Position numbers and translations under genes: made by a program. The notes below the pieces were generated by a model. That model was given only the letters and a program-made list of their open reading frames with translations. It was not told the origin of the DNA and searched no databases. A stretch of DNA of 64,000 nucleotides, from positions 310,001-374,000 of the forward strand of contig NZ_JACWZY010000002.1 in NCBI RefSeq assembly GCF_014699005.1, read 5' to 3'. This stretch comes from Spirosoma profusum. Lineage in GTDB: Bacteria > Bacteroidota > Bacteroidia > Cytophagales > Spirosomataceae. Shown here in pieces: positions 5,997 to 13,432 of the stretch. Positions within the stretch are counted from its first letter, which is position 1. Every line of letters begins with the position of its first letter.

Positions 5997-6940
5997 TATT
6001 TCAAACGCATCATAAGCGTAGAGCGATTATAGGCTCCAAAGCAGCCAAAGCCTCCTTGAATGTTGCTAGAAATCAGTACCGGCTCGGCAAATGGATTGTC
6101 ACGGACCTGATTCTGCCGTTCAATAGCATCATGATACCGGTAATAATTTTCATCGACATTAAGCAGATAGGCTTCCAGTTTACCCGACGGTGCAGTATAG
6201 GTCCATACACCATTATTAAATGTAGAAGTAGAAGCCAGGCGTGCGCGTTCAGATATCATTTCCTGCCCATCGCGCCCCAAATCCGTTAGGAGATACCCGT
6301 TATCGAAATACCAGCTGCTTGTGTATAAAACAAGTGTATCGCGAGGGGGTGCATTGGGTGATGGCCTGAATGTAAAACGCTGTGGGTACTCATTATTGCC
6401 AGCAATTCGGTAGAAATTAGCTTGCCCAGCGGCATCCCGCCAACGTAATCTGACGGAGTAATTCTTTCGCCCATCGCTGAAATCGGTGTTTAAAGCCGAA
6501 TCTATCAAAACCTGTTCCAGAGCTACCGGAACAGGAACGGTGCAGGTAGCCGTAACTTCCGATACGCCAAACGCACTAGCCTTTAAGGTGTATGTTTTTC
6601 CTGCAACAATAGGTAGTTCACTGGCTCTGATACGATAAAAAAGTTTAGAACCCCCAAAACCAATCTTAGGAGTTGAATCACGAAGCGTTACCGTTTTAAC
6701 GCCGTCCGACAACGTAACAGTAGCTCCATATACATAAGCAAACTCATTGCTTGGCCCCAGTACGGGTGAAGAGCGAGATAAGAGTACAGTTAATACAGTA
6801 TCCTGTGGAGAAATAAAGCAGGATACGACCAGTTTTTCACTCTGCTGTGTTAACCCTTTTGGCTCTACTTCCTGCCGCAAACTGTCGCAACTGGCTATCA
6901 AACCAATCAATGCTATGTAAATTAATACGTTGAGTTTCAT
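5996..6940 (-). CDS. DUF4249 family lipoprotein, partner of the TonB receptor
   Basis: This 314-residue lipoprotein (signal and lipobox LIASCDS) has the DUF4249 pattern: EKLVVSCFISPQDTVLTVLLSRSSPV near residue 40, VYGATVTLSDG, a VAGKTYTLKAS block, and the C-terminal FAEPVLISSNIQGGFGCFGAYN. DUF4249 proteins are almost always encoded directly after a TonB-dependent receptor and are thought to be surface partners in uptake; the ligand is unknown. It starts 2 bases after the receptor's stop, so the two genes are co-transcribed and probably translationally coupled. Its end overlaps the shared terminator. Confidence 0.85.
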   Translation of the reverse strand: MKLNVLIYIALIGLIASCDSLRQEVEPKGLTQQSEKLVVSCFISPQDTVLTVLLSRSSPVLGPSNEFAYVYGATVTLSDGVKTVTLRDSTPKIGFGGSKLFYRIRASELPIVAGKTYTLKASAFGVSEVTATCTVPVPVALEQVLIDSALNTDFSDGRKNYSVRLRWRDAAGQANFYRIAGNNEYPQRFTFRPSPNAPPRDTLVLYTSSWYFDNGYLLTDLGRDGQEMISERARLASTSTFNNGVWTYTAPSGKLEAYLLNVDENYYRYHDAIERQNQVRDNPFAEPVLISSNIQGGFGCFGAYNRSTLMMRLK

Positions 6941-9728: not shown

Positions 9729-10439
9729 ATGAACGAGATAGTGAGTGTTTGCATGGCGACGTATAACGGCGAAAAATATATACTACGTCAGTTGCAATCG
9801 ATTCTAAGCCAATTGAATCCGGAGGATGAGGTAATTATCTCGGACGACAATTCAACAGACACTACGTTAGCGATTATTGTTCAGATAGGAGATAAGCGTA
9901 TCAAAGTATATAAGAATCAGGGACTTCGCGGGCCGCTGCATAATTTTGAACAGGCGATACGTCATGCTTCGGGTAATTATATAATTCTCTCCGATCAGGA
10001 TGATGTATGGATGCCGGATAAGGCGCAAACGATACGTTCGCTCTTGAAAAATCATGATCTGGTACTGACAAATTGTGAAGTTGTCGATCAAAACGGCACT
10101 ATAATACATGCTTCCTATTTCAAACATAGGGGTACTAAGTCTGGGTTCTGGCATAATCTGTACAAAAACTCATATATGGGGTGTTGTATGGCGTTTCGGC
10201 GGGAGATACTGACTTATGTAATGCCTTTTCCTACGCACATACACATGCACGATTGGTGGATTGGCTTATTAGTAGAGCTAAAAGGGAGCGTGTGTTTTTA
10301 TCCGCAGCCGCTTCTCCAATATTTTCGTCATGGAGAGAATGCGTCAACGACTGGCGAACCAGGGTATGGCTTACTGAAGCGACTCAAGCATCGTGTATTT
10401 ATGCTGTGGCACGTAGCAGCAAGAATTTTGTCAAGATAA
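9729..10439 (+). CDS. Family 2 glycosyltransferase
   Basis: This 236-residue GT2 (GT-A fold) enzyme starts directly in the nucleotide-sugar binding motif: VSVCMATYNGEKYI, EVIISDDNSTD, then YIILSDQDDVW, where the DQDD is the metal-binding DxD, and a later MHDWWIG acceptor/catalytic motif. It resembles rhamnosyltransferase-like GT2 proteins acting on surface polysaccharide. It stands alone, with no polysaccharide cluster around it, and is visibly more AT-rich than its neighbours, which hints at independent acquisition. It has no signal peptide or transmembrane segment, so it is cytosolic or membrane-peripheral. Confidence 0.9.
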   Translation: MNEIVSVCMATYNGEKYILRQLQSILSQLNPEDEVIISDDNSTDTTLAIIVQIGDKRIKVYKNQGLRGPLHNFEQAIRHASGNYIILSDQDDVWMPDKAQTIRSLLKNHDLVLTNCEVVDQNGTIIHASYFKHRGTKSGFWHNLYKNSYMGCCMAFRREILTYVMPFPTHIHMHDWWIGLLVELKGSVCFYPQPLLQYFRHGENASTTGEPGYGLLKRLKHRVFMLWHVAARILSR

Positions 10440-10539: not shown

Positions 10540-10780
10540 TCACTCACTTTTAGTTAGCTGTAAAACAACACTTGCCCGGCGGGCATTCACGTTCGGATTG
10601 ATTCCGACGTTCATCAGGAACGTACCGCTGTACACTTTTCCGTCTTCCAGCGTTGATTTTGTGCCCGGAAACAGGTTGATTTCGCTGACCCGATATTTCG
10701 CAGCGGGGTCTAGTCCTGCCAGTTTAACCGGTCGGTTTGAACCGGATTCTACTACTTGATTAGAGTGAAAATAGGAGAAC
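10540..10780 (-). pseudogene. Detached C-terminal segment of the GH36 alpha-galactosidase
   Basis: Skipping one copy of the 20-base duplication at 10761-10800 makes the upstream frame (…MFSYFHS) continue as NQVVESGSNRPVKLAGLD, then KYRVSEINL, SGTFLMNVGINP and finally LQLTKSE with a TGA at 10540-10542. This is the expected C-terminal beta-sandwich end of GH36. The repaired gene would be 2196 bases (731 codons plus stop), in line with the family. As sequenced, this segment is out of frame and has no start of its own. Confidence 0.85.
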
Positions 10781-12755
10781 TAGAGTGAAAATAGGAGAAC
10801 ATGACGGCATTGGCCTTGTTTGCGCTCACATACATAAGCGATGCAAACGGATTTTCGTATGGGCTGGCTAAACGGTATTGTTCGCCATGCCAGACCGTCG
10901 TTTTGAATTCGCTGTAGTTTTTGAGGGCTTGCTGGCAAAACTCTAACTCAGTCGGTTTTAGGTGATTTACTACGATATCGAAGCCAAGTTTTCCCATACT
11001 TGCTACGTCGACCCGGAATTTGATCGGTTGCTTACCCCAATCCGTTACGTGACAATCGGTTGTGATGGACGGGAAAAAATACGAGTAATTCCACTGCTGA
11101 AAAATACGCTCGATTGGCTCGGTGTCGTCGCTGGGCCAGAATTCGGTAAAGTATTTCAGCAACTCATAATCGCCACGTCCGCCCCCGCCTGAGCAGAGCA
11201 TCATGGGCACTTTCGGGTGTTTAGCCCGTATACGCTCCAGCACAGCATATAAACCACGTACATACTCGACGTAGAGGTGTGTTTGCGGCAATTTGTTCTT
11301 GCTGAGCCAGACCGAATACGCATTGTAAATCACCGCATTACAATCCCATTTGATAAAAGCCAGTTCAGGGTTTTTAGTAAATAAGCCATCTACTACGCCA
11401 AACACGAAATCCTGAACCTGCGGATTGGCGAGATCGAGTACCAATTGATTTCGGTAGTATTTCTCGGGGCGTTCGGGCTGGCGGATGACCCAATCCGGGT
11501 GTTTTTCGTATAGCTCACTTTTAGGATTCACCATTTCCGGCTCGATCCAGATACCGAATTTTACGCCCGTTTCTTTGGCCGCTTTTACCAGATAACCAAT
11601 GCCGTGCGGCAGTTTTTTAACGTTCTCCTGCCAGTCGCCCAGACCCGCATCATCGTTGTTTCGGGGGTATTTATTGCCAAACCAGCCATCGTCGAGCAGA
11701 AACATATCGGCACCTAATTTCTTGGTATCCGTAATCAGGCCCGACAGTTTCGTTTCGTCAAAATCAAAGTAAGTCGCTTCCCAGTTGTTCAGCAGCGTAA
11801 GTCGGTCACCCTTCCCGTCGAGAACCCGGTAATTCCGAGCCCAGCGTTGCAACTGCCGACTGGCCTGCCCGGTACCATTGCCCGAAATCGTGTAGATGAG
11901 CGACGGCGTTCTAAACGATTTACCAGCAGGCAACGTATAGGCCGACGCATACGGATTGATACCTGCAATCAGACGTAGCGTTTTGTAGGAATCGATCTCA
12001 AAATCAAGTTTGTAGTTCCCGCTCCAGGCTAGTTGACCCAGCAAAACCGTTCCGCTATTTTCCTGGGCAGGCTGGTCGAACGAGACGATAAAATTGGGTG
12101 TACCTAACAACATCGCCCGCGTACCCAGCTTGGAGTCGATAGTCCGAATTCCCTGCTGAAGTTTCTCCTCCGTTGGCTGCATTTCTTTCAGGTATTGCCC
12201 CTGAAAACTGGTCAGGTAAAACGTATTGTTCGGGAAAAAGAGATTGGCCGATGCATATTTCTGTAAAACGACCGGCCCCTTTTCCTGATTGGTTATTTCC
12301 GACCATTGCTCGATTACGTTCTCCAACTGCCATGTTTTGTAAAACAGACTAACGTTCAGCTTATAAACCGGATCAGCCAACTGAACTGTCGTTAACGTAC
12401 TGTTGGCATCGGGTTTGACGGTTTGATGAGATACGTACTTTAAATCCAGCGAGGGATTGCCATCGGAGTGTGTGACTTGTATGGCGGGTTCGGCCAGATT
12501 CCACGTACCGGCGGGCGTATAGGCGTTGCTATAGACTCCGCTGTTGCCGCTCGGAAAACGATACGTACTGATAATGTCTTTATAGTCAACTGATTGATTC
12601 AGTTTTTTGCCGCAATACACCATGTGCAGATAATTGTCCTTATCGCTTTGAAGCACTACGGCGAAATCAGTGGTTTCAACCGGAATGGTGATCTGAGCAA
12701 CGCAACGTATCGATAATAAGACGAAAGGAGCAACGGCTCGGTAGAACGTATTCAT
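10752..12755 (-). CDS. Alpha-galactosidase, GH36 family, truncated by a frameshift
   Basis: Secreted retaining alpha-galactosidase, 667 residues as sequenced. A signal peptide (FVLLSIRCVAQ) is followed by the GH36 N-terminal sandwich, then the barrel from about residue 310: NNWEATYFDF, MFLLDDGW, GIWIEPEMVNP, the nucleophile in FIKWDCN (Asp471), the CSGGGGR motif and the acid/base in WPSDDTEPIERI (Asp543). The last 11 residues are replaced and about 75 native residues are lost because of an exact 20-base tandem duplication near the 3' end. The active site is intact but the C-terminal domain is incomplete. Whether the product folds is unknown; the rest of the frame shows no decay. Confidence 0.9.
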   Translation of the reverse strand: MNTFYRAVAPFVLLSIRCVAQITIPVETTDFAVVLQSDKDNYLHMVYCGKKLNQSVDYKDIISTYRFPSGNSGVYSNAYTPAGTWNLAEPAIQVTHSDGNPSLDLKYVSHQTVKPDANSTLTTVQLADPVYKLNVSLFYKTWQLENVIEQWSEITNQEKGPVVLQKYASANLFFPNNTFYLTSFQGQYLKEMQPTEEKLQQGIRTIDSKLGTRAMLLGTPNFIVSFDQPAQENSGTVLLGQLAWSGNYKLDFEIDSYKTLRLIAGINPYASAYTLPAGKSFRTPSLIYTISGNGTGQASRQLQRWARNYRVLDGKGDRLTLLNNWEATYFDFDETKLSGLITDTKKLGADMFLLDDGWFGNKYPRNNDDAGLGDWQENVKKLPHGIGYLVKAAKETGVKFGIWIEPEMVNPKSELYEKHPDWVIRQPERPEKYYRNQLVLDLANPQVQDFVFGVVDGLFTKNPELAFIKWDCNAVIYNAYSVWLSKNKLPQTHLYVEYVRGLYAVLERIRAKHPKVPMMLCSGGGGRGDYELLKYFTEFWPSDDTEPIERIFQQWNYSYFFPSITTDCHVTDWGKQPIKFRVDVASMGKLGFDIVVNHLKPTELEFCQQALKNYSEFKTTVWHGEQYRLASPYENPFASLMYVSANKANAVMFSYFHSSSPIFTLIK
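10761..10800. repeat. Exact 20-bp tandem duplication inside the GH36 gene
   Basis: The 20-mer tagagtgaaaataggagaac occurs twice head-to-tail (10761-10780 and 10781-10800). Since 20 is not a multiple of three, it shifts the frame and creates a stop 11 codons later. Removing one copy restores the family C-terminus. This could be replication slippage, a reversible phase switch or an assembly/culture artefact. Confidence 0.95.
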
Positions 12756-12982
12756 CAGTTAGTTAGGGTTAACGTAACGGCGAAGACAGCCTTCGCAGCT
12801 TGCATATAGGAATGGCTATCAGGCGGCCGAAAGTAAACAGATTTTCGCATAAGCTTGGATAGGTGCCGTATTTCGTTGTATACCAACCATCTATAAAGCC
12901 AATTCAACCCAATATGGAATGATGCAATTAGTCCGAATAGCTGACGCTACTTTTGCTACGTTGCCACCAATTGATACGTCCA

Positions 12983-13432
12983 ATGAGAGTTTTCAGTTTA
13001 CAAATCGCCTTCAGTCTGTTTACTACGTTGCTGATTTTCCATACGGCAAAAGCGCAGTCAGCCAAAGAAGTTTCGTTGATTGCTCACCTTGCCCAAGAGG
13101 CCAGACAGCCCGATGCACACGTAGCAGGTGATACGTATCTGATGGTCAGAATCGGGCAGATTGAATACGTAGCAGAGCTCGAATCAGGCAAGAGTATTGG
13201 CCAGCAAAAGACCGAAGTTACTGGCGGAGGCATTTGTGGTGATTATGCTGAAGTCAGTATAAATCTGCTGGATAAAAATAAACAGCAAACAACACAGGGC
13301 TCGGGGCAGGTGCTGAAATATAGTAGTGGCAAATGGACGATGGTGGCCTTGTCGGAAGGAGATTATTCCTGCGAAAAAATAAAACGTTTACCAAAAGCCG
13401 TGATACGTTGCTTACAAATTGAATGTAATTGA
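12983..13432 (+). CDS. Secreted protein of unknown function
   Basis: 149 residues from ATG 12983 (MRVFSLQIAFSLFTTLLIFHTAKAQS), which gives a typical signal peptide; the longer frame starts with TTG. The mature part has a short beta-rich pattern (GDTYLMVRIGQIEYVAELES, VTGGGICGDYAEVSINLLD) and three cysteines. I do not recognise a family. It is divergent from the GH36 gene and precedes REP-like copy 2, but nothing ties it to either neighbour. Confidence 0.6.
   Translation: MRVFSLQIAFSLFTTLLIFHTAKAQSAKEVSLIAHLAQEARQPDAHVAGDTYLMVRIGQIEYVAELESGKSIGQQKTEVTGGGICGDYAEVSINLLDKNKQQTTQGSGQVLKYSSGKWTMVALSEGDYSCEKIKRLPKAVIRCLQIECN

Follow-up and report, generated by a model that had tools for sequence, protein, structure and literature searches.

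The only GH36 gene of this strain of Spirosoma profusum has probably been broken by a recent and spontaneous tandem duplication of 20 bp, with the consequent loss of its function. Among the readings that can be given to the sequence, that of a recent pseudogene is the most likely, that of an assembly error is less likely, and that of phase variation is not supported. The window, that is, the whole stretch of 64,000 nucleotides that was analysed, contains on its plus strand the unit TAGAGTGAAAATAGGAGAAC twice, head to tail, exact and abutting, at 10761-10800 (copy 1 at 10761-10780 and copy 2 at 10781-10800). A two-copy tandem of this kind is far beyond what is expected by chance, as there were no matches in 100 dinucleotide-preserving shuffles. 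The array comprises 40 bp, or exactly 2.0 copies, neither flank extends the match, and in the whole genome (8.73 Mb in 81 contigs) the 20-mer is found at these two sites only.

The affected gene lies on the minus strand (10540-12755), where it is identified by its Pfam domains and its homologues, and with the unit counted once it has 731 codons, its product ending in ...VVLQLTKSE before a TGA at 10540-10542. As sequenced, the frame is broken, and the open reading frame (10752-12755, minus strand) encodes 667 residues, of which 658 are native and are followed by SSPIFTLIK and a TAG stop; the duplication thus exchanges the last 73 residues for nine unrelated ones read out of frame. The 667-residue product contains the GH36 N-terminal domain (PF16875, E 4.4e-51) and the complete catalytic domain (PF02065, positions 1-346 of 347, E 5.9e-90), while the C-terminal domain (PF16874, positions 28-76 of 77, E = 9.8e-12) is found in the shifted frame downstream, so that all three domains of a GH36 member are present. 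The displaced 3′ end of the gene (10540-10760, minus strand), which encodes most of that C-terminal domain, is intact and conserved according to its PF16874 match, its conservation and its pN/pS. The preliminary description of this DNA had proposed an exact 20-bp tandem at these positions, a GH36 alpha-galactosidase broken by it, and a 731-residue enzyme ending in LQLTKSE at 10540 once a copy is removed, and the shuffles, the Pfam matches with the frame shift, and the translation bear out each of these points.

With respect to the GH36 alpha-galactosidases already known (PF16875-PF02065-PF16874; AgaB 4fnq, 6phu), the gene has the same domain order, a complete catalytic domain and, in its one-copy frame, 731 residues as against their 729-740; unlike theirs, its C-terminal domain is no longer read in frame, owing to the duplication. 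Homology to the solved enzymes suggests an alpha-galactoside as the substrate, and the N-terminus looks, by eye, like a signal peptide. The gene has a convergent neighbour on its 3′ side (9729-10439, a glycosyltransferase of family 2) and a divergent one on its 5′ side (12953-13432); it therefore stands alone, and no polar effect is to be expected from its interruption. A scan for promoters and terminators around it gave no more matches than the shuffles.

The completeness of the catalytic domain might lead one to suppose that the truncated protein of 667 residues is a functional shortened form. This is scarcely credible, firstly, because none of the homologues ends at that position, secondly, because most of the C-terminal domain has been replaced by an out-of-frame tail, and finally, because the 3′ segment, although no longer read in frame, still resembles conserved coding sequence. 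The GH36 activity was likely lost through the truncation, but with its catalytic domain complete the 667-residue product may retain some of it.

The comparison with relatives indicates which state came first. A match to the GH36 protein exists in 33 of the 35 other genomes of the genus, and the four closest homologues, all of the same genus, are full length, carry one copy, and share 81-82% identity over 729-731 residues; some 100 further homologues from Bacteroidota are collinear through the duplication site along their whole length. No aligned homologue presents an insertion, a gap or a tandem repeat at the site, and, since the relatives have one copy and no repeat there, the one-copy state is ancestral. 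A short C-terminus common to the relatives, which would have spoken against the preliminary description, was looked for and is not shared: the C-terminus is complete in 106 of the 107 homologues aligned, with 67-81 residues from position 659 onward (73 in the one-copy frame), and the exception ends early through an unrelated in-frame stop much further upstream. This exception (L111, from a Muribaculaceae MAG) has its stop some 351 residues into the match, in the motif GLGD*IEIKD; the corresponding residues of the window protein are GLGDWQENVKK. In Spirosoma telluris HMF3257 the GH36 gene (L093, about 6542-6545; G015:C1, about 3836116-3836125) is also frameshifted, near residue 542, in a different place from that of the window, and there a sequencing error is possible.

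The segment beyond the break has retained the marks of a coding sequence. After residue 660, none of the ten positions conserved at 90% or more in the homologue alignment is violated, and the downstream pN/pS between the window gene and its four closest relatives is 0.20-0.29, comparable to that between the intact genes L003 and L004-L006 (0.27-0.31); with synonymous sites near saturation (pS of about 0.7), this is a weak test of selection on a recent time scale. As the downstream constraint is the same as in intact pairs, the break would be recent, decay not having had the time to show itself. The one departure is residue 660 itself, a Gln (CAA, 10756-10758) whose codon lies 2 nt past the end of the array. 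At this position 93% of the homologues carry Arg, and Gln occurs in none of them; by count it is statistically unremarkable (Fisher p = 0.21), and it could be the first mutation of decay, a part of the duplication event, or a consensus error. Thus, the recency of the event, already proposed in the preliminary description, agrees with these data, and its statement that the downstream segment has no other damage holds in essence, Gln660 being the reservation.

As to the origin of the duplication, a single accident of replication or repair would have copied 20 bp within the gene, and the resulting frame shift would have removed most of the C-terminal beta-sandwich domain, with loss or strong reduction of the GH36 activity; afterwards, the loss of one copy could restore the frame spontaneously at a low rate. 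The flanking bases show no terminal microhomology at 10761-10800 and no Ku gene was found in the genome, and because of these two absences slippage or template switching are left as the probable mechanisms. A microhomology-mediated duplication was discarded given the lack of terminal microhomology and an array of exactly 2.0 units, as was classical Ku-dependent end joining given the lack of Ku. Slippage driven by a hairpin was likewise rejected, as the only inverted repeat near the array is weak (20 nt, 75% complementary, 36 nt apart). The microhomology-mediated tandem duplications of fission yeast (PMC13207564) are similarly short, frame-disrupting and revertible, but that class is defined by the terminal microhomology which the array of the window does not have.

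Since a single assembly of one strain is the sole sequence to present the two-copy state, an error of assembly or consensus, by which the real chromosome would have one copy and an intact enzyme, has to be weighed. Other features are in keeping with it: the genome is a draft of 81 contigs, the consensus could be of poor quality locally, as the unexpected Arg-to-Gln codon that begins 2 nt from the array might indicate, and the lack of terminal microhomology is what would result if ends with a short overlap were joined unmerged. Against this, the site lies within a contig of 583 kb (C22), the array of 40 bp is shorter than any usual read, and the genome contains no copy of the unit outside the array by which an assembler might be misled; a misassembly by way of another copy of the unit was rejected on this last ground. 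The tandem repeats of the genome, surveyed over 1.66 of its 8.73 Mb, point in the same direction: there are six perfect ones of period 12 or more. The GH36 array has the longest unit among them; no other reaches a period of 16, and in no other does the additional copy make the host gene shorter. In each of two comparison genomes, examined over 0.4 Mb, there are two perfect tandems, none of them of period 20. The scarcity of such tandems in the surveyed parts, with no second join of this type in the 1.66 Mb, means that the assembly is not full of them, which argues against a systematic artefact, and on balance an error at this site appears unlikely. It may also be that a mixed culture lies behind the two-copy sequence. 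In another part of the same genome (L121, 18413-18438) an open frame contains an exact 13-bp tandem repeat and measures 458 codons with two copies and 339 with one; in this case it is the two-copy state that looks intact.

The preliminary description had also suggested slipped-strand phase variation. In a reading of this kind, cells of two copies (off) and of one copy (on) would coexist and the switching between them would be selected for. An exact 20-bp tandem can indeed lose a copy by slippage, and duplications within pneumococcal capsule genes reportedly control phase variation, according to the titles of Waite et al. (2001, 2003) that PMC4022640 cites. In the capsule examples so mentioned (cap8E, tts and the type 3 locus), as in the window, there is an exact tandem within the coding region that in principle can be lost by slippage; here, by contrast, it is a question of an environmental glycosidase, seen in a single state and in a single strain. 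However, the unit is present no more than twice, a repeat at the site is kept by none of the homologues, and a sequence with one copy lacks the terminal microhomology by which a new duplication might be favoured, so that the repeat would assist only the off-to-on direction. In addition, for insertions no longer than 9 bp PMC4022640 gives a reversion of at most about 1e-5, and the 1.66 Mb surveyed hold neither a second gene-breaking tandem nor any set of switch-like loci. With the 20-mer confined to this array, with no repeat in the relatives and no other such loci, evolved phase variation was rejected as the main reading and seems very improbable; a reversible switch of the only GH36 gene in a clonal environmental population of Bacteroidota, with the duplication as one of its positions, would be, if anything, a shade more improbable. 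A literature search on phase variation in Spirosoma returned nothing relevant. What stands of the clean reversibility that had been claimed is the generic capacity of short tandem duplications to lose a copy, and nothing beyond this. In summary, the duplication looks like an ordinary mutation, and nothing indicates that an on/off switch has evolved here.

For the strain itself, the consequences may reach its nutrition, since the window gene is the only one with PF02065 in the genome, no GH27 gene was found there and a single GH97 is present; the use of raffinose or melibiose for growth may therefore be affected. In the annotation of the strain the GH36 gene should be marked as frameshifted. 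Beyond the strain the significance is small, although the locus, as an intragenic tandem duplication both short and recent, is a clean case and useful for measuring reversion. With regard to its history, the gene groups with four copies of the same genus and then with those of Flavobacterium, Prolixibacteraceae and Maribellus (L003-L006, L032-L036), apart from the GH36 of most of the genus, with which it has some 60% identity, and its gene neighbourhood is not conserved around the homologues; this distribution suggests that the lineage may have been acquired by horizontal transfer.
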